Shown piece after piece: positions 5,771 to 23,594 of a stretch of DNA of 24,692 nucleotides. How positions within the stretch are numbered: position 1 is the stretch's first letter; every line of letters starts with the position of its first letter. The stretch comes from Clostridia bacterium. Lineage in GTDB: Bacteria > Bacillota_A > Clostridia > Christensenellales > Aristaeellaceae. The notes beneath the pieces were generated by a model that saw only the letters and a list, made by a program, of their open reading frames with translations, did not search any database and was not told the DNA's origin. A program made the position numbers and the translations under genes. The stretch lies in NCBI GenBank assembly GCA_017509065.1, contig JAFWQM010000025.1, positions 1 through 24,692 on the forward strand. Direction: 5' to 3'.

Positions 5771-5842
5771 CACATTACCTTTAACAATACTGACAAGGAT
5801 ATAAACAACGAGATTCTTTTTATGGCTTTCTCGGAAAGGGGT

Positions 5843-5887
5843 GTGGGGAAAACCGCTCTTTGGCCTCCAAAGAGCAGTTTTCCCCAC
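5843..5887 (-). repeat. Long solitary hairpin between CofE-like gene and deacetylase
   Basis: GTGGGGAAAAC plus GCTCTTTGG pairs with CCAAAGAGC plus GTTTTCCCCAC: 20 base pairs, one C/A mismatch and a 3-nt loop. It lies 9 nt past the CofE-like stop (minus strand) and just ahead of the deacetylase leader. No T-run follows on either strand, so it is not a standard intrinsic terminator, though it could protect or end the CofE-like mRNA. Its stem resembles the outer stem of element B at 14480-14654. Confidence 0.85.
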
Positions 5888-5896
5888 AAAACTTCG

Positions 5897-6997: not shown

Positions 6998-8113
6998 TCA
7001 GTTTTCCATGCAGCGCAAATCTACCTGCACATCCACGTCCGCGCTGCAATAGGCGTCCCGCCATCGCGCCTCTTCCCAGTCCTGCACCGTGGCAAACTGC
7101 CGCACGGCATGACAGCCGAAGCCGAATCCGTCACAGCGCAGGGCCTGCAGGTGCCGGATAACAGCAGTGATATCCTGAACCAACTGCCGAGTGATGAAGG
7201 CTTCATCCGGGGGTTGGCCGGGCGAATACTTTCCTTCGCAGAACACCCGGACAGACAAAAGGACAGGCTCCCGCATGAGCTCCACCCTGATCCCAGCGGG
7301 CCTGGACGCCAGTACGCGGACGGCGTTGTCCTGCCCGTCCCGAAGCGAAAGAGCTTCTACATGCCCCTCCATCAGATGAAGCAGCGCCATTTCATAGCCG
7401 GTCAGGTAGCCAGACACGCAGACGCCGTCCGTTGCCGCAGCACCGAACACCTCCACCGTTTCCGCGCTTCGGCGGGGCAGCTCGCCTGCCAGACTGTCCA
7501 GGGTATTTTCATCGTGATCGGGGGTTGAAGCTGAAAAATCATTCACCGCGCCTAAGATGAACAGCGGGTCGCTGAATCCGTAGCCCAAATCCCGCACCGC
7601 GTCGCAGAGGGTTGTTTTCGGGGTGAAGCCCTTGCCCGCGTAATTGCTCAGGCTGGTTTCCGTGTAGCGGCTCAGGCGTGTGCCCACATAGGGCTTCTGC
7701 GCTTTGGAAAAGTCCGCGGCCCTGCCCTTGCACACGATCACCGCCGCCGAACAGCGAAACCGGGGCAGTGCGTCGATCTGCCGGAGCAGCCTTGCGAAAT
7801 CCTCCTGACACGCGGCGTTTTCGCCGATAATAACTTCCCTGGATTGGGAGAAGTTCAGGGACCGGGGCGTGGCCGCGTTCAGCATGGTCAAGGCGTCGGA
7901 AAAGGTGTGGCCGGAGGCTTCCACCATCAGATAGCTGTCGTCATCGCCGCCCGCCGCCGCGCTGCGCGGCGCTTTGACGGACACGGTCACCTCGCCCGTC
8001 TCGCTCCTGTCCACGGTCAGCGCGATGACCAGCAACTCTTCCTCCAGTTGCCGCGGCGAGCAGCCAGAGAGCACCAAGGCGCAGCACAGCAGAAAAGATA
8101 TAAATCGCTTCAT
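6998..8113 (-). CDS. gerAC: Ger(x)C family spore germination lipoprotein
   Basis: The 371-residue product has a lipoprotein signal: positively charged start, hydrophobic core and lipobox LSGC with Cys18 as the lipidated residue. The following region (LLVIALTVDRSETGEVTVSVKAP, FSQSREVIIGE) is typical of the GerAC subunit, which is anchored outside the inner spore membrane and needed for the nutrient receptor. It is the third gene of gerAA-gerAB-gerAC. Its ATG overlaps the gerAB stop by 4 nt (ATGA), implying translational coupling. Length is in the usual 350-400 residue range. The germinant cannot be inferred from sequence. Confidence 0.93.
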   Translation of the reverse strand: MKRFISFLLCCALVLSGCSPRQLEEELLVIALTVDRSETGEVTVSVKAPRSAAAGGDDDSYLMVEASGHTFSDALTMLNAATPRSLNFSQSREVIIGENAACQEDFARLLRQIDALPRFRCSAAVIVCKGRAADFSKAQKPYVGTRLSRYTETSLSNYAGKGFTPKTTLCDAVRDLGYGFSDPLFILGAVNDFSASTPDHDENTLDSLAGELPRRSAETVEVFGAAATDGVCVSGYLTGYEMALLHLMEGHVEALSLRDGQDNAVRVLASRPAGIRVELMREPVLLSVRVFCEGKYSPGQPPDEAFITRQLVQDITAVIRHLQALRCDGFGFGCHAVRQFATVQDWEEARWRDAYCSADVDVQVDLRCMEN

Positions 8114-9222
8114 GGGCCTGTTCCTTCCTTCCCGGTTTTTTTACCGCGCGGGACACGGAAGAAAAACAGGATAAGCGTTACCGCCAGCGTGACCGGCCCG
8201 CGGAACATGGCGATCTGCGTCAGCGTTTCTGTGATTTCCGGCAGCGGGCAGGCGGCGCAGGGAACCAGAATAAGCAGCAGCAAAAGCAGCATAAACCCGG
8301 AGGGCTCTTTCTGATCCGGCAGCAGCAGCGCAGCGGCCTGGGTGACGTGGTAGTTGAGCGCCAGGAAAAACAGCAGCAGCACGCCCAGCGCTTCCATGCT
8401 CCACGCGGGAATGGAGGGGGTCATGTTGATGGCAAGCATCAGCTGCCAGCCCAGGGTTTCGCTCCGCGCCATGGTGCGAACCGGCATGAGCAGCACGCTG
8501 ACCAGCATGGTGCCGCATCCCGCCAATATGGACAGCAAGACTGGTTTCACAGCCGTGCTCTTTTTCGTCAGCATGGGGGAAAGGGCCTGGCTGTTCTGCG
8601 GCGTCAGCAGCGGCAGCGCGCAGCAGGACACCGCGCCGCACATCCACAGCGCGCCTTTGCCGATGCTTTCCCAGCCAAAACCCAGAATCGGGAAAAAATA
8701 GGAAGCGTTGCCGTAGGGAAGAGAAGTAACCAGGCCGTAACCCAGCAGGATCAAGATGAGCCATTTCAGAAAATGCCCGAGCCGGGCAAGCGCGTCCTCC
8801 CGTCTGCCGGTATTGGCCCAGGCAAGCGCCAGCGCGGTCAGCAGCGCCATTGCCCACAGACTGTGATCCGGCATGATGTTCGTCAGGATGGCGCACAGGC
8901 ATGTAAAAATCAGCTGGGCGTTGAACAGATGCAGCAGGGCGAAGAGGAAGGAAGCGGGCTTGCTCAGGTGCTTTTCAGTGCCTGAACTCCGGGCTGTTTT
9001 CCGCGCCAGGAACAGAAGCAGCAGGGCAAAGGGAACCGTCAGCAGGATGGAAAGATAACCCGGCGTGCTCACATGATTATAAATGTAAAGCGCCAGTCCG
9101 ATAAAAATCTGCGTGTAGACTGCCAAGCCGCACAAGGCGCAACGGTCCTGGGCCAGAGCCTGCCAGCGCTGGGCCTTCATTTCCTGAACACTGTGCACCT
9201 TTGTTTCTGTTTTTCCGATCAT
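8110..9222 (-). CDS. gerAB: GerAB family spore germination permease
   Basis: The 370-residue polytopic membrane protein has about ten hydrophobic segments starting near residue 28 and resembles the GerAB/APC-superfamily permease subunit. This subunit is thought to bind the germinant and work with GerAA in ion release from the spore. The gene lies between gerAA and gerAC with 4-nt ATGA overlaps on both sides, so all three should be translated together. It has no separate promoter and depends on the sigma-G promoter upstream of gerAA. Identification rests on size, topology and operon position, since this family is poorly conserved in sequence. Confidence 0.92.
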   Translation of the reverse strand: MIGKTETKVHSVQEMKAQRWQALAQDRCALCGLAVYTQIFIGLALYIYNHVSTPGYLSILLTVPFALLLLFLARKTARSSGTEKHLSKPASFLFALLHLFNAQLIFTCLCAILTNIMPDHSLWAMALLTALALAWANTGRREDALARLGHFLKWLILILLGYGLVTSLPYGNASYFFPILGFGWESIGKGALWMCGAVSCCALPLLTPQNSQALSPMLTKKSTAVKPVLLSILAGCGTMLVSVLLMPVRTMARSETLGWQLMLAINMTPSIPAWSMEALGVLLLFFLALNYHVTQAAALLLPDQKEPSGFMLLLLLLILVPCAACPLPEITETLTQIAMFRGPVTLAVTLILFFFRVPRGKKTGKEGTGP

Positions 9223-10748
9223 TTCTTTTCCTCGCGGGGATCATCCCAGGCGCGCATCATGCCCTGGACGCGCTCGATATGAAAGGGATTCGCGATGGCT
9301 CCGCGCAGCCGCTGCCGCCAGATGGGCAGGCGCAGCGTTCGGTCGGGGTTGGCGGGCCGCTTCGGGGCAATGGGGGAAAAGTAAGGCGCTTTGAGACTGG
9401 TGACGCCGAATGCCCTAAGCAGCAGGCAGAACAACGCCAGCGCCATGGCCGGATATCCGCCCGTTCCCGCCGCCAGCAGCAGAATCAGCTGCCCGATGCG
9501 CAGGGCCAAAGTCAGCGGAAAGGTCGGCGCTGCATAGCTTCCAAGGCCGCTCAGCGCGACCACGATCAGGATCAGTGGGCTGAACAGCTCCGCTTCCACC
9601 ACGGCCTGGCCTAAGATCAATCCGCCCACGATGGACAGGCTCGCCCCCAGCGCGCCGGGAACGCGCGTGCCCGCTTCGTTGATCAGGCTGAAAATGAGCA
9701 GCATGATGAGCATGGAGGGAAACAGCGACAGCGGCACCTTCGCCTGGCTTTCCACCACCGAGGTCATCAGCGACAGGCTCAGCCCCTCGGGGTGAAAGAC
9801 CGTCAGCGCGATGAACAGCGCGGGCAGCAGCAGGGAGATTATCATGCCGGAAAGCCTGAGCAGGCGCAGGAACGTCCCATATTGCCAGCGCATGGCGGTG
9901 TCGTCCGGGGCATGGAACAGATGCAGGAAACTGACGGGGAGCGCGAGCGCGGCAGGGGCGTTTTCCATCAGCAGAACGATCTGGCCTTCCGAAAGAAAAC
10001 TCACCGCCCTGTCAGGCCGCTCGGTACAGGCGGTCTGCGGCAGGAGGGCGAAGGGATCGTCCTCGATCAATTGCTCCAGCATCCCGATGCTGGACACATA
10101 GTCGATATTGCAGCCCTCCAGCCGCCGCCTGACTTCCTCCACGTTCTCCCGCCGGGCGATGCCGTCCAGAAACATCAGGCAGACGCGGGCGGGCACTTTA
10201 TTGCCTACTGTCATCGCTTCACAGATCAGCGCCGGCGTGCGCATCATGCGGCGGATGAGCACGGTGTTGTCCCGCAGGGATTCGGTGAATCCCTCGTGCG
10301 GCCCGGCGACCACGGACTCATTGATCGGCTCGGCGATGCCGCGCTTCACAAATCCCTTCATGTCCGCGATCAGCGCGCCGGGCATCGTGTCCACGATGAT
10401 CGCCGCATCGCCGCTGAACACGCGGCCGAGCACAGCGGAAGCCTGAAACGCGGGGGAGACGGAGGCAAGGGGAAGCACGGAGTTCATGAGATAGGTATCC
10501 AGCGGCGTATCAGCCGGGCAGGCTGCAGCGCGGAGCAAAGGCTCCATCAGAAAACGCTGCACCTGCCCGCTGTCCGTCAGCCCGTCCACATACAGCAGCG
10601 CGGCGGGATGGCCCAGCGCAGTAAACTCCCGCAGCACCACGTCTTCGCTTTTTTCGCTGTGGGCTGCTTCGCGCAGCAGGGGGATGCTCTGGCGGATATC
10701 CTCCGAAATCCCCCCGTCTCTCATGGGGCGCCATGCCGTGTCCGACAA
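9219..10748 (-). CDS. gerAA: GerAA family spore germination protein
   Basis: The 509-residue protein has an N-terminal soluble domain of about 290 residues followed by membrane segments, the GerA layout. Recognisable blocks include YVDGLTDSGQVQRFLMEPLL, the SEGQIVLLMENAPAALALP region, and FSLINEAGTRVPGALGASLSIVGGLILGQAVVEA. GerAA oligomerises and is proposed to form the ion channel of the receptor. Start: no ATG suits the N-terminus. A TTG at 10748 follows AGAGG at 8 nt and lies about 24 nt from the predicted sigma-G transcript start. The next in-frame ATG (10724) lacks a ribosome site. First gene of the ger operon. Confidence 0.94.
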   Translation of the reverse strand: MSDTAWRPMRDGGISEDIRQSIPLLREAAHSEKSEDVVLREFTALGHPAALLYVDGLTDSGQVQRFLMEPLLRAAACPADTPLDTYLMNSVLPLASVSPAFQASAVLGRVFSGDAAIIVDTMPGALIADMKGFVKRGIAEPINESVVAGPHEGFTESLRDNTVLIRRMMRTPALICEAMTVGNKVPARVCLMFLDGIARRENVEEVRRRLEGCNIDYVSSIGMLEQLIEDDPFALLPQTACTERPDRAVSFLSEGQIVLLMENAPAALALPVSFLHLFHAPDDTAMRWQYGTFLRLLRLSGMIISLLLPALFIALTVFHPEGLSLSLMTSVVESQAKVPLSLFPSMLIMLLIFSLINEAGTRVPGALGASLSIVGGLILGQAVVEAELFSPLILIVVALSGLGSYAAPTFPLTLALRIGQLILLLAAGTGGYPAMALALFCLLLRAFGVTSLKAPYFSPIAPKRPANPDRTLRLPIWRQRLRGAIANPFHIERVQGMMRAWDDPREEKK

Positions 10749-16542: not shown

Positions 16543-17922
16543 ATGAAGCATCGCAAAATGGACAGAACTTACCGCGTGAAGAAGAACGGCAGTTTTTTCA
16601 GAAAGCACTGGAAGAAGATCACCCTGGTATCCGCGCTGTGTCTTTGCCTGATGGCGGCTTCCATGGTAAGCGGCCTGGCGGCGGGCCGCGGCGGACAGAT
16701 GATGATGAACGGCGGCTTTGACGGCTGGACGCAGGGCGGATGGATGGGCCTAAGTACCAATGTGACCTACGCCGAAAGCCCTTCTGAAATCGTGACCAGC
16801 AGTGTGGAAAACGCAGCCTCCGCCCTGATCGCCGACTATGAAAACGCCGTATATATTCGGATGAGCGACAGCGACAGCAAGGTAAAGATCAATGAGGTCG
16901 GCACCTACGTGATCAGTGGTGACTGCTCTGACGGCAGCATCACCGTAAAGAAGGAAACCACCGGTGTGGTGCTGGTGCTGGATGGCCTGAACCTGGCCAG
17001 CAGCGACGGCGCGGCGGTATCCATCAATAAGGATGCCCAGGTCAAGATCGTAATCAGCGGCAGCGTGACCCTCACCGACAATGAAAACCCAGCGGATGAA
17101 TCTTCCGCTGACGCCGAAACTGCCGATGCGTATGACGGCGCGGCGATCAAGGCAAAAGCGGGTTCCCAGGTGTACCTGACCGGCGACGGCACGCTGAACA
17201 TCAACGGATATGCCAAGAACGGCATCAAGGTGGGGGACACAGACTCTTCCTTTGTGATGGACGGCGAAAACCTGACCGTGAATATCGTCGCCGCCAACGA
17301 CGGCATCAACGCGGGCGCTGACCTCACCCTGCTTTCCGGCACGCTCAACGTCACAGCGAAGGATGACGCCATTCACGCTGACCGCATCCTGACCATTGGC
17401 GACCGGGACAGCGCGAGCGGGCCGTCCGTCACCGCCAGCGCTGCGGAATGCCTGGAGGGCACCGTGGTCAACATCTTCGGCGGCAATATCAGCGTGACCG
17501 CCACCGACGACGCCATCAACGGCGCGCAGAAGGATGATACGCTCATTGCCTCCGTGAATATTACCGGCGGCACAGTGAACGTGCAGAGCCAGGGCGACGG
17601 CCTGGACTGCAACGGCAACATCAACCTGCTCGGCGGCGTCATCACCATCAGCAGCGCTTCCTTCGGCGGCCAGGCGGGCATCGACTATGACGGCGCGTAC
17701 TACGTGGCGTCCGCCGTGACACTGAACAATAACAGCGGCGTGGCCGGCCCGGACGGCGGCGGAATGCGCGGCGGCATGAACGGCCAGTTCCAGCAGTCCG
17801 GCCAATTCTCAGGCTTTGGCCAGCGCGGCGGCCAAATGTCCAATCCCGGCCAGAACCAGCAGACAGACGCCGATACCTCCGCCACTCAGAGCAGACAAAC
17901 GCACGGCGGATGGAACCACTAA
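16543..17922 (+). CDS. Cthe_2159-type carbohydrate-binding domain surface protein
   Basis: The 459-residue protein has a basic N-terminus, one membrane or signal segment (about residues 27-47), and then beta-helix-like repeats from about 85 to 395. Their recurrent pattern (GTLNINGYAKNGIKV, NDGINAGADLTLLSGTLNVTAKDDAIHA, DDAINGAQ, GDGLDCNGNINLLGG) matches the Cthe_2159 family, whose founder binds polygalacturonate and cellulose and has Ca-binding loops. The C-terminal tail is rich in Gly, Gln and Met and looks disordered. There is no LPXTG signal; the N-terminal helix may anchor it. AAGGAGG is upstream of the ATG. It is a single gene behind a probable activator-dependent promoter. No intrinsic terminator precedes element A copy 2, which starts 26 nt past the stop. 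Confidence 0.87.
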   Translation: MKHRKMDRTYRVKKNGSFFRKHWKKITLVSALCLCLMAASMVSGLAAGRGGQMMMNGGFDGWTQGGWMGLSTNVTYAESPSEIVTSSVENAASALIADYENAVYIRMSDSDSKVKINEVGTYVISGDCSDGSITVKKETTGVVLVLDGLNLASSDGAAVSINKDAQVKIVISGSVTLTDNENPADESSADAETADAYDGAAIKAKAGSQVYLTGDGTLNINGYAKNGIKVGDTDSSFVMDGENLTVNIVAANDGINAGADLTLLSGTLNVTAKDDAIHADRILTIGDRDSASGPSVTASAAECLEGTVVNIFGGNISVTATDDAINGAQKDDTLIASVNITGGTVNVQSQGDGLDCNGNINLLGGVITISSASFGGQAGIDYDGAYYVASAVTLNNNSGVAGPDGGGMRGGMNGQFQQSGQFSGFGQRGGQMSNPGQNQQTDADTSATQSRQTHGGWNH

Positions 17923-17948
17923 AAGCTACCGATCAGCTTTAAATCATC

Positions 17949-18230
17949 CAACAAAGGGAACGCTGGGCGCTCCGCGCGCCCAGACCTGCGCCAAAGGACT
18001 TCGTCCTCTGGACTCCAATAGGCGAAATTACATGGTTGGGTAAAGAAAGCAACATTCGCCTGTCAATATGGGGTTACGGAAGATAGAGGCTTCTGGCCTA
18101 AGAAAGCTGAGAAAATCCCAGGGGGAAAGCTCGCTTTCCCTTGAGGATTATTCCCAGGCTTTCCCCGGACGTAAAGCGTCCGGGATGGCGGCGGAACTGG
18201 GGCGAACAGCCCCAACGTAACCTCCTGTAA
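17949..18230 (+). repeat. Element A, copy 2
   Basis: Order of parts: P1 CTGGGCGC/GCGCCCAG (17963-17983); P2 CCAAAGGA/TCCTCTGG (17991-18011, one A/C mismatch); the GGCGAA/TTCGCC arm (18021-18060); the GGGGTTACGGAAG block; the GGCTTCTGGCC arm; GGGAAAGC/GCTTTCCC (18123-18140); the 8-bp hairpin CCCGGACG/CGTCCGGG (18164-18184); and a terminal P1-like hairpin TGGGGC/GCCCCA (18198-18214). The last part is an inverted version of the 5' end, so the element has hairpin-bearing inverted ends. No coding potential. Confidence 0.85.
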
Positions 18231-18270
18231 CTCTCCTCGAAACCTGAATGATGAAACCCCAAATTATATG

Positions 18271-18295
18271 GAGCCCTTCGCGGGCTCTCTTTTTG
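18271..18295 (+). terminator. Terminator ending the 3' UTR that contains element A copy 2
   Basis: GAGCCC/GGGCTC stem with loop TTCGC, followed by TCTTTTTG. It abuts the -35 box of the nagZ promoter. It is the first convincing terminator after the carbohydrate-binding protein gene. Confidence 0.85.
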
Positions 18296-18324
18296 TTGTC
18301 AAAAACGGGCTGCTGTGGTACAAT
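18296..18324 (+). promoter_or_regulatory. Promoter of nagZ-amiE-like operon
   Basis: TTGTCA (18296-18301) and TACAAT (18319-18324) are 17 nt apart with TGG before the -10 box. Confidence 0.8.
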
Positions 18325-18366
18325 CGGAAAGCGGATCAATCTTTGACCATAAAGGAGTTTATCGTG

Positions 18367-19527
18367 ATGAAGAAGACGTGTTTTTACCGAAGCGCCGCCG
18401 CGCTGCTCGCTTCAGCGATGCTGATTTGTCCCGCGGCCGCGGAAGATGATCCCATATTGCGGAAGATGGAAAGCATGACCCTGCGGGAAAAAGTGGGCCA
18501 GCTGTTCATGATTCGCCCGGACGCGCTGGAGGGCAGGTTCGGCCCCGCCGAACTGGAGGACAACAGCATCACCGGCACCACCCGCGTTTCGGATGAAATG
18601 CGGGAAAAGTACGCTCTGTACCCGTGCGGCGGTTTCGCGCTGTTCCGCAAGAACATCCTCTCCGCCAGCCAGCTGCTTATGTTTAACGAAAGGCTGCACG
18701 GGATGGGGGAGATTTCTCCGATGCTCGGCATCGACGAAGAGGGCGGAAGGATTGCCCGCATCGCCAACCATTCCGCTGATTTTGGCGTGAAGAAGTTCCC
18801 GTCCATGGGCAGTATCGCTGCGGGCGGTGACGAGAGCAAAGCGTTTGAAGCCGGCCTGACCATCGGGCAGTACTTGAAAGCCTACGGCTTCGACGTCGAC
18901 TTCGCGCCGGTGGCCGACGTGAACACGAACCCGCGCAATCCCGTGATCGGTGACCGCGCCTTCGGCGATAATCCGGAAGTGGCTTCGGGGATGGTCCAGG
19001 CTGTCATCCGCGGGCTGCATGAGGGTGGCACGGCGTCCTGCGTCAAGCATTTTCCTGGCCACGGCGACACCGCCACCGACACCCACACCGGCTACGCGGA
19101 AACAAAAAAGACCTGGGAGGAAATCAGCAATTGCGAGATGCTTCCCTTTCGCGCCGGCATTGCCGCGGGCACGGACTTCGTGATGACCGCCCACATCTCC
19201 GCGCCGAACGTGACCGGCAGCGACGAACCCTCCACCATGTCCTATACCATCCTGACCGAAAAGCTTCGCGGAGAGCTGGGCTTTGAAGGACTCATCATCA
19301 CCGACGCCCTTTCGATGGGCGCTATCCGGGAGAAGTATTCTTCCTCCGAAGCCTGCGTCCGCTGTATCCAGGCAGGGGTGGATATCCTGCTCATGCCTTA
19401 CGATTATTTCGAGGCGTTCGACGGCGTTGTGCGGGCGGTCGAAAGCGGCGTGATTCCCGAAAGCCGGATTGACGAAAGCGTGTACCGTATTTTGAAATTC
19501 AAGATGGAGAAGATGGGCCCGGTATGA
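18367..19527 (+). CDS. nagZ: Exported beta-N-acetylhexosaminidase (GH3)
   Basis: The 386-residue protein begins with a Sec signal peptide (MKKTCFYRSAAALLASAMLI..., likely cut after AAA near residue 25). GH3 NagZ hallmarks are KHFPGHGDTATDTH (227-240), with the Asp-His dyad that acts as general acid/base, and nucleophile Asp313 in IITDALSMG. NagZ releases N-acetylglucosamine from muropeptide fragments during cell-wall turnover. An outside-the-membrane NagZ is the Bacillus arrangement, unlike the cytoplasmic enzyme of Proteobacteria. Start: ATG at 18367, 9 nt after AAAGGAG; a GTG one codon earlier is an equal alternative. The stop overlaps the next start by 4 nt. Confidence 0.93.
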   Translation: MKKTCFYRSAAALLASAMLICPAAAEDDPILRKMESMTLREKVGQLFMIRPDALEGRFGPAELEDNSITGTTRVSDEMREKYALYPCGGFALFRKNILSASQLLMFNERLHGMGEISPMLGIDEEGGRIARIANHSADFGVKKFPSMGSIAAGGDESKAFEAGLTIGQYLKAYGFDVDFAPVADVNTNPRNPVIGDRAFGDNPEVASGMVQAVIRGLHEGGTASCVKHFPGHGDTATDTHTGYAETKKTWEEISNCEMLPFRAGIAAGTDFVMTAHISAPNVTGSDEPSTMSYTILTEKLRGELGFEGLIITDALSMGAIREKYSSSEACVRCIQAGVDILLMPYDYFEAFDGVVRAVESGVIPESRIDESVYRILKFKMEKMGPV

Positions 19528-20585
19528 ATGAAGTATTGAGAGCGCGCCTTCGGCGCGAGATTGATGACATCATGGCGCGCTATCGGGCGGCGGGGTATTT
19601 CCCCTCCGCCTGCGTGCGCGTTTTTAACAGCCGGGAAACGTTGGCCTGCGCCTGCGCGGGGGAGGCGGAGGAAAACAGCCTGTTTGACGTTGCCAGCCTG
19701 ACCAAAATCGCTACGGCCACGCAGATATTTCTGCTGATCGGACAGGAAAAGCTGGGATTGCGGGATAAGCTTCCCGACGCCCTGCCCGCTCTGCGGAATG
19801 ACGCGTATCTGGCTGAACGGCTGAAATACGTTACGCTGTATCATTTGCTTACCCATACCTCCTCCCTCGCCGCCTGGTATCCTTTTTATTCCCGGCGGGG
19901 AGAAGACTTTTATGCCGTTCTGAAATACGCTTTGCTGCATACAGAGCCGACAATAGGCATGGTGTATTCCGATCTCAACTTCATGCTGCTTGGGAAAATC
20001 ATTGAGCATGTCCAGGGAAAGCCGCTGGAAGTCTGCCTGCAGGAGGATCTGGTGAGACCCCTGGGCTTGGGGAACATGACTTATCTGCCCGATCAGAGCC
20101 TGCCCATCGTTCCTTCCTGCTATGGCAATCCCATCGAAACGCGGATGTGCGCGGAGCGCGGCATTTCCTTTGACGGATTTCGGCCTGCGGGCCGGCCTGT
20201 CCGCGGCGAAGCGAATGACGGCAACTGCCATTACTATTTCCGCGGCGTTTCCGGCCACGCGGGCATCTTTGCCGACGCGGCGGCCTACGAGCGTTTGTGC
20301 CAATACTATATGAACACCGCCGATCCGCTGCTCATCGAGGCGCAGCGGGAGCAGCCGGACGCTCCGGGGCGGGGCATCGGCTTCCAGACGGGAACCAGCT
20401 ATCCCCACGGATGCGGTCACACCGGCTTCACCGGCACAGGCATTTACTTTTCACGGGACTGTGACGTGGGCGTCATCTCCTTCACCAACCGCCTGTTCTA
20501 TCCGAGCGAAAATGAAAACGCCACCTGGGAATTCCGCCGCGCCCTCCATGAAGCCGCGTTTGCTCTGACGGGACGATTTTCCTGA
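19524..20585 (+). CDS. Serine hydrolase of the beta-lactamase family, AmiE-like
   Basis: The 353-residue protein has the class C beta-lactamase/PBP-like motifs: SLTK (Ser58, Lys61), YSDLN (Tyr149, Asn152) and GHTGFTG (His300). Linked by a 4-nt ATGA overlap to nagZ, it matches the B. subtilis nagZ-amiE (ybbD-ybbE) arrangement, in which AmiE is a beta-lactamase-fold N-acetylmuramyl-L-alanine amidase that removes peptides from MurNAc. The AmiE assignment therefore rests on family plus context and is not proven. No signal peptide is visible at the N-terminus, so it appears cytoplasmic, in contrast to its exported partner. An esterase or D,D-peptidase role is the alternative. Confidence 0.8.
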   Translation: MNEVLRARLRREIDDIMARYRAAGYFPSACVRVFNSRETLACACAGEAEENSLFDVASLTKIATATQIFLLIGQEKLGLRDKLPDALPALRNDAYLAERLKYVTLYHLLTHTSSLAAWYPFYSRRGEDFYAVLKYALLHTEPTIGMVYSDLNFMLLGKIIEHVQGKPLEVCLQEDLVRPLGLGNMTYLPDQSLPIVPSCYGNPIETRMCAERGISFDGFRPAGRPVRGEANDGNCHYYFRGVSGHAGIFADAAAYERLCQYYMNTADPLLIEAQREQPDAPGRGIGFQTGTSYPHGCGHTGFTGTGIYFSRDCDVGVISFTNRLFYPSENENATWEFRRALHEAAFALTGRFS

Positions 20586-20630
20586 ATCGGTCAGCAGGGT
20601 CGCCGAATCGCTGTTATACTCACAAACTAC

Positions 20631-20659
20631 TTTACAAAATCAGCCTTTCTGATTATAAT
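20631..20659 (+). promoter_or_regulatory. Sigma-A promoter of leuS
   Basis: TTTACA (20631-20636) and a perfect TATAAT (20654-20659) are 17 nt apart. The leader of about 28 nt is too short for a T-box. Confidence 0.85.
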
Positions 20660-20693
20660 GTAACAATCCGCAATGATTGAAGGAGGCTTCCTT

Positions 20694-23108
20694 ATGCCGG
20701 TCAAGCCCTATGTACCTGCTGAGATCGAACCCAAGTGGCAAAAATACTGGGATGACCACCAGGCCTTTGCCGCGTCAAAAGACCATACCAGGCCCAAGTT
20801 TTACACTTTGATCGAATTCCCCTATCCCTCCGGCCACGGCCTGCACGTGGGGCATCCCCGCTCCAACACGGCCATGGACATTATTTCCCGCATGCGCCGG
20901 ATGCAGGGTTATAACGTGCTGTTCCCCATCGGCTGGGACGCTTTCGGCCTGCCCACGGAGAACTACGCCATCAAGAACAACATCCATCCCGCCATCGTGA
21001 CCAAGGAAAACATCGACCATTTCCGGGAGCAGCTCAAAAAGCTGGGCTTCTCCTTCGACTACAGCCGGGAAGTGGACACCACCGATCCGAATTATTACAA
21101 GTGGACCCAGTGGATTTTCCTCAAGCTCTTTGAGCATGGCATGGTGTTCAGGGACAAGACGCTGGTGAACTACTGCCCCTCCTGCAAGGTGGTGCTTTCC
21201 AACGAGGACAGCCAGGGAGGCAAATGCGACATTTGCCACGGCGACGTGATCCAGTTGCCCAAGGACGTGTGGTACCTGCGCATCACCAAGTACGCGGATA
21301 AGCTGCTGGAGGGCCTGGAAACCGTCGATTATCCCGAGAACATCAAAATGCAGCAGGTGAACTGGATCGGCAAGTCCACCGGCGCTTTTGTCAAGTTCCC
21401 GCTGTATAAGACCGACGAAAGCGTGGAAATCTACACCACCCGGCCCGACACCCTGTTCGGCGTGACCTTCATGGTCATGGCCCCTGAGCATCCGCTCATT
21501 GACAAGTATGCCGGGCAGATCACCAACATGGCTGATATCGAGGCGTACCGCGACGTGTGCGCAAAGAAGACCGAGTTTGAGCGCACCCAGCTCACCAAGG
21601 AAAAGACCGGCCTCAAGATCGAGGGTCTGTCCGCCGTGAACCCGCTGACCGGCAAGGTCGTTCCCATCTTCATATCCGACTACGTCATGATGGGCTACGG
21701 CACCGGGGCCATCATGGCCGTGCCAGCCCACGATCAGCGCGACTGGGAGTTCGCCCACAAGTTCGGCATCGACATCGTGCAGGTCATTAAAGGCGGCGAC
21801 ATCGAACAGGAAGCCTACACCGGCGACGGCGAGATGATCAACTCCGATTTCCTGAACGGCTACACCAACAAGAAAGACTCCATCGCCCGGGTGCTGGAGG
21901 AAATCGAAAAGAAGGGCATCGGCAGGGCCGGCGTCCAGTACAAGATGAAGGACTGGGCCTTCAACCGCCAGCGCTACTGGGGCGAGCCCATTCCGCTGAT
22001 TCACTGTCCCAAGTGCGGCGTGGTGGCCGTGCCTTATGAAGAGCTGCCCCTGCGCCTGCCGGAAATCGACGATTTCCAGCCCGGCACCGACGGCAAATCC
22101 CCCCTGGCTCGCATCGACAGCTTTGTGAACTGTACCTGCCCCAAGTGCGGGGGCGCTGCCCAGCGCGAAACCGACACCATGCCCCAGTGGGCGGGCTCCA
22201 GTTGGTACTTCCTGCGCTACTGCGACCCGCATAACGACCAGGCCTTCGCCAGCCAGGAAGAACTGAAATACTGGCTGCCCGTGGACTGGTACAACGGCGG
22301 CATGGAGCATGTCACCCGGCATTTGCTCTACTCCCGGTTCTGGCACCGCTTCCTCTATGACATCGGCGAAGTGCCCACCCCCGAACCGTACGCCAAGCGC
22401 ACCGCCCAGGGCATGATTCTCGGCTCCGACGGCGAAAAGATGAGCAAGAGCCGCGGCAACGTGGTGAACCCCGACGAGATCGTGGCGGAGATCGGCGCGG
22501 ACGCCTTCCGCATGTACGAAATGTTCATGGGCGCGTTCGACCAGGCCATTCCGTGGAGCACTAATGGAGCCCGCGGCTGCCGCAAGTTTCTGGACCGCGT
22601 GTGGCGCTTGCAGGAAATTCTCACCGACAGCGACGATTTCAGCGACGACCTCCGGGTGTCCATGAACCAGACGATCAAGAAGGTTTCAGAGGACTTCGAG
22701 AAAATGAAGTTCAACACCGCCATCGCCCAGATGATGACGCTGGTGAACGAAATGGTGCAGAAGGGCAGCGTCACCAAGGGCGAATACAGGACCCTGCTGC
22801 TCCTCCTCTCCCCCGTGGCTCCCCACATCTGCGAGGAAATCTGGCAGGCGCAGGGCTACGGCAAACCCGTTTACACCCAGCCCTGGCCCACCTACGATGA
22901 AAAGTATCTGGTGCGGGACGAGGTGGAAATCGCCGTGCAGATCAACGGCAAGGTGAAAGGCAAGCTGATGGTGCCCGTCACCCTCACCAAGGAAGCCGCC
23001 CAGGAAGAACTGCCCCAGAAGGACGAAGTGAAGAAGCTCATCGGCGATAAGAATATCGTCAAGTGCATCTACGTCCCCGGACGGCTGCTGAACCTGGTGG
23101 TAAAGTAA
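20694..23108 (+). CDS. leuS: Leucyl-tRNA synthetase
   Basis: The 804-residue class Ia synthetase charges tRNA-Leu with leucine. It shows the HIGH-type motif HVGH (51-54) within PYPSGHGLHVGHPRSNTAMD, a zinc-ribbon pair CPSC...CDIC, the CP1 editing domain (TTRPDTLFGVTFMV; GTGAIMAVPAHDQRDWEF with its essential Asp), a second Cys cluster CPKC...CTCPKC, and KMSKS at 582-586. The C-terminal anticodon-binding and extra domains end in NIVKCIYVPGRLLNLVVK, a usual LeuS end. Length is typical. The ATG at 20694 follows GAAGGAGG. Single gene; no intrinsic terminator was found before element A copy 3, which begins 40 nt past the stop. Confidence 0.98.
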   Translation: MPVKPYVPAEIEPKWQKYWDDHQAFAASKDHTRPKFYTLIEFPYPSGHGLHVGHPRSNTAMDIISRMRRMQGYNVLFPIGWDAFGLPTENYAIKNNIHPAIVTKENIDHFREQLKKLGFSFDYSREVDTTDPNYYKWTQWIFLKLFEHGMVFRDKTLVNYCPSCKVVLSNEDSQGGKCDICHGDVIQLPKDVWYLRITKYADKLLEGLETVDYPENIKMQQVNWIGKSTGAFVKFPLYKTDESVEIYTTRPDTLFGVTFMVMAPEHPLIDKYAGQITNMADIEAYRDVCAKKTEFERTQLTKEKTGLKIEGLSAVNPLTGKVVPIFISDYVMMGYGTGAIMAVPAHDQRDWEFAHKFGIDIVQVIKGGDIEQEAYTGDGEMINSDFLNGYTNKKDSIARVLEEIEKKGIGRAGVQYKMKDWAFNRQRYWGEPIPLIHCPKCGVVAVPYEELPLRLPEIDDFQPGTDGKSPLARIDSFVNCTCPKCGGAAQRETDTMPQWAGSSWYFLRYCDPHNDQAFASQEELKYWLPVDWYNGGMEHVTRHLLYSRFWHRFLYDIGEVPTPEPYAKRTAQGMILGSDGEKMSKSRGNVVNPDEIVAEIGADAFRMYEMFMGAFDQAIPWSTNGARGCRKFLDRVWRLQEILTDSDDFSDDLRVSMNQTIKKVSEDFEKMKFNTAIAQMMTLVNEMVQKGSVTKGEYRTLLLLLSPVAPHICEEIWQAQGYGKPVYTQPWPTYDEKYLVRDEVEIAVQINGKVKGKLMVPVTLTKEAAQEELPQKDEVKKLIGDKNIVKCIYVPGRLLNLVVK

Positions 23109-23148
23109 TATCAATCTTTAAGTAACTATTCAGGTATCAAGTTCAGCA

Positions 23149-23414
23149 GCAAAGGGAGACGCTGGGCGCTCCGCGCGCCCAGACCTGCGCCAAAGGCCTT
23201 CGGCCTCTGGACTCCCATAGGCGAATTAACTCCGTATGATAGAACAAACAACGTTCGCCTGCCGCGCTGGGGTTACGGAAAGTTAGTGGGCTTCTGGCCC
23301 AAGAAAGACAGGGAAAACCCTCAGGGGAAAGCGAGCTTTCTCCTGAGGGTTATTCCCAGGCTTTCCCCGGACGCTTCACGTCCGGGTTGGCGGCTTCGCC
23401 GCCGGGCCAGAAGC
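23149..23414 (+). repeat. Element A, copy 3
   Basis: Parts in order: P1 CTGGGCGC/GCGCCCAG (23162-23182); P2 CCAAAGGC/GCCTCTGG (23190-23210); GGCGAA/TTCGCC (23220-23259); the GGGGTTACGGAAAG block; a 17-bp hairpin with one G-U pair (23316-23332 with 23335-23351, loop GA); CCCGGACG/CGTCCGGG (23366-23386); and GGCGGC/GCCGCC (23389-23403). An 11-bp long-range stem GCTTCTGGCCC/GGGCCAGAAGC (23290-23300 with 23404-23414) encloses the last three. The 23109-23594 gap holds only this copy, copy 4 and about 80 bp of unassigned sequence. Confidence 0.85.
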
Positions 23415-23491
23415 ACAACAAGACGGAGTCCGATATCCTATCTCTCAAGCAGCAGCGGGAACAAACTCCACTTTTTTGTCAAGTATAATCC

Positions 23492-23560
23492 GCTATTGCG
23501 GGTCCAGGGTACTCAGTACCCTGGTGGGGACTGGGGTGAAACCCCAGCGTTCCCTTTGTT
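23492..23560 (-). repeat. Element A, copy 4 (inverted 5'-end fragment)
   Basis: Read on the minus strand from 23560: AACAAAGGGAACG, P1 CTGGGGT/ACCCCAG (23547-23531), P2 CCAGGGTAC/GTACCCTGG (23524-23504), then ACCCGCAATAG; similarity to copies 1-3 then stops. It faces copy 3, so the two form inverted ends of a 412-bp unit (23149-23560). Confidence 0.8.
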
Positions 23561-23594
23561 GGGTTTCTCTTAGCTGAATGGTAACATCTTTAAG

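Follow-up and report, generated by a model that had tools for sequence, protein, structure and literature searches.

Three elements of one repeat family were identified in the 24,692-nucleotide (nt) contig JAFWQM010000025.1 of a Clostridia bacterium (assembly GCA_017509065.1), the whole of which is referred to here as the window. The repeat is probably a non-autonomous, non-coding mobile DNA element of about 410-470 nt, resembling a miniature inverted-repeat transposable element (MITE) and found in one family of Clostridia, and the covariation of its hairpins is probably in large part a footprint of DNA copying. Its layout is that of a composite mirrored palindrome, often bounded by matching terminal inverted repeats; there are dozens of copies in a genome, and orthologous sites can be occupied or empty. 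A sequence-only reading of the window had proposed either a palindromic mobile repeat or a structured RNA family; the high copy number, the matched terminal inverted repeats and the existence of both occupied and unoccupied orthologous sites support the former.

Layout and distribution of the repeat

The full unit is self-complementary and contains no evident gene. Its left half runs, often from an outer inverted repeat, through hairpins P1 and P2 and a GGCGA arm (P3) to a GTTACGGAAAG block; in the centre a closing stem (GCTTCTGGCCC/GGGCCAGAAGC) encloses hairpins H1, H2 and H3; and the right half carries the inverted counterparts of P3, P2 and P1, followed by the outer repeat again (P3′ and the mirrored order are in part by-eye readings). 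Complete copies in related genomes also have P1-P2 on the left and inverted P2′-P1′ on the right. The blocks, their order and the stems quoted in the sequence-only reading are present where it had placed them, but the four copies that it counted are three elements, as element 3 accounts for two of them, its inverted ends lying at 23149-23414 (plus) and 23492-23560 (minus) (Table 1). Its copy at 17949-18230 is a real family member that is internally deleted (element 2), passing from a GGCGGC arm straight to the right-end P1′ at about 18197-18214, with the central domain interrupted within H3 (covariance model match 18088-18210, 74.2 bits). Its copy at 1-210 is likewise a real member, cut by the window edge (element 1), with arm P3, the GTTACGGAAAG block and a portion of the central domain remaining; the covariance model match is truncated (1-71, minus, 44.2 bits). 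The pairing claimed for P2 is imperfect, with an A-C mismatch in two of the four quoted stems (CCAAAGGA/TCCTCTGG and CCAAAGGC/GCCTCTGG).

Table 1 Coordinates of the three elements, their parts and the control RNA in the window
Feature	Position	Strand	Remarks
Element 1	1-256	minus	cut by window start
Element 1 left outer repeat, class ii	about 231-256	minus	read by eye
Element 1 hairpins P1; P2	179-197; 151-171	minus	
Element 2	17925-18257	plus	internally deleted
Element 2 outer repeats, class iii, both ends	about 17925-17943 and 18235-18257		by eye against L045
Element 2 P1	17963-17983	plus	
Element 2 P2	17991-18011	plus	one A-C mismatch
Element 3	23122-23585	plus	complete: left and inverted right halves around the centre; matches the profile at 23152-23588 (model positions 1-439)
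Element 3 outer inverted repeat, class iii	about 23122-23141 and 23572-23585		
Element 3 P1	23162-23182	plus	hairpin
Element 3 P2	23190-23210	plus	hairpin, one A-C mismatch
Element 3 central domain	23289-23414	plus	closing stem enclosing H1, H2, H3; covariance model 133 bits; minimum free energy fold
Element 3 P2′	23504-23524	plus	hairpin, inverted counterpart of P2, right half
Element 3 P1′	23531-23547	plus	hairpin, inverted counterpart of P1, right end
Bacterial small signal recognition particle (SRP) RNA, Rfam RF00169	10881-10979	minus	63.8 bits; served as control family

A pattern built on the conserved block matched 51 loci across the genome collection, and 48 of these lie within seven Clostridia/Clostridiales metagenome-assembled genomes (MAGs), so the repeat family is not a chance assembly of motifs; three of the 51 loci (L026, L041 and L042) were discarded as chance by eye. 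One of the seven MAGs is titled water-buffalo rumen, and the hosts include RUG-named MAGs, which we take to be rumen sets. Searching with element 3 gave 50-79 scored matches in each of the seven MAGs (up to 40 candidates were scored per genome, and one copy may yield several matches), indicating dozens of copies in each. Among 150 genomes of the family, at least 21 matched by DNA similarity, with several matches confined to the P1-P2 ends or to the centre, and at least 16 contained diverged sequence matching the covariance model of the centre; three genomes in each set are from the seven MAGs. An order-wide scan matched at least 5 of 297 genomes, four of which had already matched in the family scan. 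These genome counts are lower bounds due to the stricter filters applied in searches of more than 40 genomes. A nucleotide search of phage and plasmid records with the left part of element 3 gave no match, nor did a search of IMG/VR with one exact pattern. Many copies sit at contig ends, and the repeat therefore probably also breaks assemblies.

Orthologous sites and outer repeats

Three orthologous sites are occupied in one genome and empty in a relative: L114 (2578) against L138, with flanks about 94-95% alike; L060 against L051, with flanks 86-89% alike; and L070 against L030 and L089, with flanks 85-89% alike and about 90-130 nt of other sequence replacing the element. The element has therefore come or gone at these three sites, in a direction that is not polarised. 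Further sites are occupied in both of two genomes.

The outer repeats fall into three classes, GGGCACTTTAA (i), AACAGTNATGTTCTCAAGG (ii) and GTAACTATTCAGGT (iii), with further end motifs in genomes G131 and G018. The same class is found at both ends in 23 of 85 full copies (9 i/i, 13 ii/ii and 1 iii/iii, where one end of one ii/ii copy fits class i too), and in none of the 85 do the two ends plainly belong to different classes. As a control, 4000 random places gave 37 (class i), 7 (class iii) and 5 (class ii) one-sided matches. Class i repeats also occur outside this family: 15 of 22 close class i pairs enclose the core, six enclose other small cargos and one encloses host genes, and among the fetched loci, other sequence adjoins 12 of 30 class i ends. 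Other palindromic cargos bounded by GGGCACTTTAA repeats were seen at L199, L195, L203, L211, L217, L022 and L204, at or near locus position 1500 (L022: 1120), and include one starting AAAAGCCTTCCCCT, one with a GTCATCCCGA block and one of a short AAGTTCTAAG type. By eye, elements with differing outer repeats follow what is seemingly the same gene, which in the window encodes a Cthe_2159-type carbohydrate-binding protein, at window position 17919 and in the flanks of L010 and L036 (three genomes), where repeated insertion or replacement is possible.

No transposase gene lies within the 410-470 nt copies, and movement would depend on transposases acting in trans on the interchangeable outer repeats. 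An origin from REP elements and their RAYT transposases was considered and rejected, as PF01797 (Y1 transposase) is present in one of four genomes and the unit is 410-470 nt long. An IS1595-type mobiliser, guessed from its ends, was not found (PF12762 in 0 of 4 genomes). It is very unlikely that the repeats are instead old and immobile, differing between genomes by loss and resembling one another through gene conversion only. Such an origin would fit the finding that orthologous copies differ by whole hairpin blocks, and that no gene-bearing relative is present among the fetched loci, and is at odds with the matched outer repeats, which bound other cargos as well, and with the element-free sites between alike flanks.

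Covariation, strand symmetry and exchange between copies

The three longer of the four segments in the sequence-only reading form much more stable folds than their dinucleotide shuffles do (z scores -6.68, -7.19 and -4.89). In 36 model-aligned matches to the centre, 96.7% of 1826 cells are paired and 44 of 51 pairs have two-sided changes, with 400 two-sided change cells observed compared to 99.6 (standard deviation 10.5) in shuffles; with the partners shifted by 1-3 columns, the score fell from 0.634 to 0.07-0.13. The alignment is fitted to structure, which favours covariation, and its cells count sequences, not events. An earlier alignment (A1, 29 sequences) had been reduced to 24 (A2) by removing five, four of them for a misaligned closing stem, and the 36 matches of A4, from fewer sources, were kept from 62 after dropping model matches below 65 bits, many of which were opposite-strand echoes. 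In a separate alignment of 88 copies, kept from 164 distinct profile hits after removal of fragments and identical repeats, Watson-Crick pairs account for 675 of 679 pairs in P1, 764 of 777 in P2, 760 of 764 in H2, 526 of 532 in H3 and, in the right half, 770 of 787 in P2′ and 572 of 580 in P1′. The proposal that pairing is kept while both strands change is thus borne out at large scale, although the four copies on which it was made were too few to show it.

Pairing in the centre is nearly the same on both strands. The 1826 cells include 40 G-T and 26 A-C pairs, in contrast to G-T:A-C counts of 125:12 for RNase P RNA and 123:6 for SRP RNA, which were taken as controls from the host genomes (RNase P RNA in 16 of 19 genomes; 20 SRP RNA sequences from 19 genomes). 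The two strands of the centre fold with energies of -147.8 and -148.4 kcal/mol and have G-T:A-C ratios of 1.2 and 0.8, whereas the corresponding values are -217.2 and -193.9, with ratios of 10.4 and 0.5, for RNase P RNA, and -57.7 and -35.5, with ratios of 20.5 and 2.4, for SRP RNA. The full-length element is also nearly symmetric in folding energy (-280.8 and -275.7). The centre therefore lacks the strand-specific pairing of a structured RNA, in which G-U is tolerated and A-C is not, which argues for a DNA palindrome. It is unlikely that the repeat is a structured RNA that serves the cell and has spread through transposition: the very strong covariation, the low folding energies and a mild excess of G-T on the given strand of the full-length alignment (G-T:A-C 2.7, compared to 1.5 on the opposite strand) would be consistent with it, but the centre is strand-symmetric unlike both RNA controls, two hairpins have inverted loops (see below), and elements were oriented with neighbouring genes in 20 cases and against them in 12 (p 0.22, using a crude gene caller). 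At the gathering score, SRP RNA was the only Rfam match in the window, and the repeat gave only weak matches to microRNA models, on both strands. The sequence-only reading did not recognise the repeat as any named family, and its suggestion of a structured RNA family is not supported.

The loops of two hairpins occur as reverse-complement pairs. In 115 distinct centres read in one orientation, the H1 apical loop is TAAA in 21 and TTTA in 10, CTCG in 20 and CGAG in 9, and TGAA in 19 and TTCA in 8, and the H2 loop is AAA in 51 and TTT in 30, and GAA in 13 and TTC in 7. The H1 inversion share was reached in 0 of 2000 column shuffles; the same test is uninformative for H2, as 1151 of 2000 shuffles reached the observed share. 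In PMC8794818, compensatory changes are proposed to arise by template switching, and loop inversion is described as the strongest possible support for it; homogenisation of arms and inversion of the spacer are attributed to the same process in PMC8604942. The repeat resembles the described outcome in all these respects, template switching being a process and not a repeat family. Inversions with compensatory changes are described as extremely rare in the RNA data of PMC8794818, whereas inverted H1 and H2 loops make up about a third of copies here. Selection on structure need not be concluded from the covariation, as it was in the sequence-only reading, since template switching during DNA replication is, in these two papers, a mutational route by which both compensatory changes and inverted loops arise, though selection may act as well.

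Some orthologous copies are far more similar to each other than their flanks are, and others far less, as expected from gene conversion between copies. L110 2425-2837 and L131 2391-2803 are identical at all but 2 of 413 positions between flanks that are about 91% alike, which could alternatively result from recent transfer or strong constraint. L062 and L068 have almost the same left part and diverged right parts (94% alike overall; flanks 95-96%). Elements are 86% alike in L114 (4392) and L138 (flanks 89-96%), 78% in L104 and L073 (flanks 88-92%) and 75% in L046 and L137, one of which contains element B (flanks 90%), and in L053 and L161 entire hairpins are replaced. Strand symmetry, loop inversion and this uneven likeness of orthologues together point to homogenisation of arms and of copies. 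A DNA polymerase switching template between hairpin arms would homogenise the arms and invert the loops, and exchange of hairpins among copies by gene conversion would maintain near-perfect Watson-Crick pairing, such that the covariation would be largely a footprint of DNA copying and no evidence for RNA.

Element B is a repeat of about 108 nt with its own hairpins that lies inside palindromes. By eye, 29 of the 31 copies with both flanks lie in elements of the present family (A-type), at P2, at P1 or the P1-P2 spacer, at P1′ or at H3, two lie in other palindromes (L253 and L256), and none lies in plain sequence. These 31 were kept from 86 hits after partial, repeated or flankless hits were dropped; 15 of them come from loci fetched by element B alone, and 13 of those are in A. 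Copies at one place may share one insertion, so that independent events are possibly few. At window positions 5842-5888, a near-perfect 22-nt inverted repeat (TGTGGGGAAAACCGCTCTTTGG/CCAAAGAGCAGTTTTCCCCACA) represents another palindrome family, and a similar palindrome hosts the element B copy in L256. Tentatively, a whole superfamily of mobile repeats may have been built and kept by palindrome-specific processes, namely the nesting of small palindromes such as element B in the hairpins of larger ones and template switching that preserves arm complementarity and inverts loops, with textbook-grade covariation arising without RNA and with little selection.

Several observations weigh against a mobile element whose covariation stems from DNA copying. 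An outer repeat is found at one end only in 28 of 85 full copies and at neither end in 34. No target-site duplication was seen by eye in the flanks of eight class i pairs, the exact ends of which are uncertain; no gene-bearing relative or autonomous partner with the same ends was found in about 1.4 Mb of fetched loci; and no mobilising transposase was found in searches for PF01797 and PF12762. Loop sequences hardly vary in H3, P1 and P2 (16:1 at most for H3, 32:3 for P2′), so inversion is not general, and a crude count of H1 that ignores bulges gave 1551 Watson-Crick, 95 G-T, 35 A-C and 107 other pairs. To these is added the residual strand asymmetry of the full-length alignment. Covariation also involves the closing stem (9 of 11 pairs), whose two arms are separated by about 100 nt; selection accounts for this more readily than template switching does. 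The main rival is accordingly a DNA fold under selection, in which hairpins or cruciforms on either strand are the substrate of a mobility enzyme. The closing stem and three hairpins persist in relatives with a different closing-stem sequence, and strand symmetry is expected under this explanation too; it nevertheless seems rather unlikely, as no such enzyme was found, with a Y1 transposase in only one of four genomes, and as hairpins are swapped, invaded by element B or lost, indicating that the fold tolerates much change.

Gene context, related elements and significance

With a first, crude open reading frame (ORF) caller, 69 copies lay between tandem (32), tail-to-tail (28) or head-to-head (9) genes; a second ORF caller gave 18 tandem, 8 tail-to-tail and 13 head-to-head, not different from a baseline of 195 element-free gaps (p 0.52), and nothing was concluded from gene context. 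Elsewhere in the window (7001-10748, minus), genes with GerA and GerAC Pfam domains form a spore germination set in this uncultured Clostridia genome.

No paper on this repeat family was found in the open-licence literature. REP elements and BIMEs, which are associated with RAYT (Y1) transposases, are high-copy hairpin repeats arranged in inverted pairs, with a unit of 20-40 bp. The present repeat shares with them, as their features are generally described, the high copy number and inverted hairpins, but is far longer, and a Y1 transposase is present in only one of the four host genomes searched. Mitochondrial mobile double-hairpin elements, or repetitive hairpin-forming elements, are hairpins that spread between genes; as commonly described, they are alike in their spreading hairpins and differ in being mitochondrial. 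The repeat also resembles the bacterial MITEs reviewed in PMC2229807 (Correia/NEMIS, ERIC, RUP, RPE and others), which are small, non-coding, many-copy elements of about 100-200 bp with terminal inverted repeats and stable stem-loops. Compared to the elements described there, the repeat is longer (410-470 nt), has several interchangeable outer repeats and a mirrored multi-hairpin body with nested element B, and has neither a target-site duplication visible by eye nor an identified mobiliser. It works like a MITE, and its membership of this group is incomplete because neither a target-site duplication nor a transposase was found.

New structured RNAs are usually recognised by their covariation, which is very strong here, yet the strand-symmetry test indicates DNA, and families like this repeat could wrongly pass as new RNAs. 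Through the many copies and the related genomes, template switching and gene conversion can be measured as they occur naturally in hairpins.

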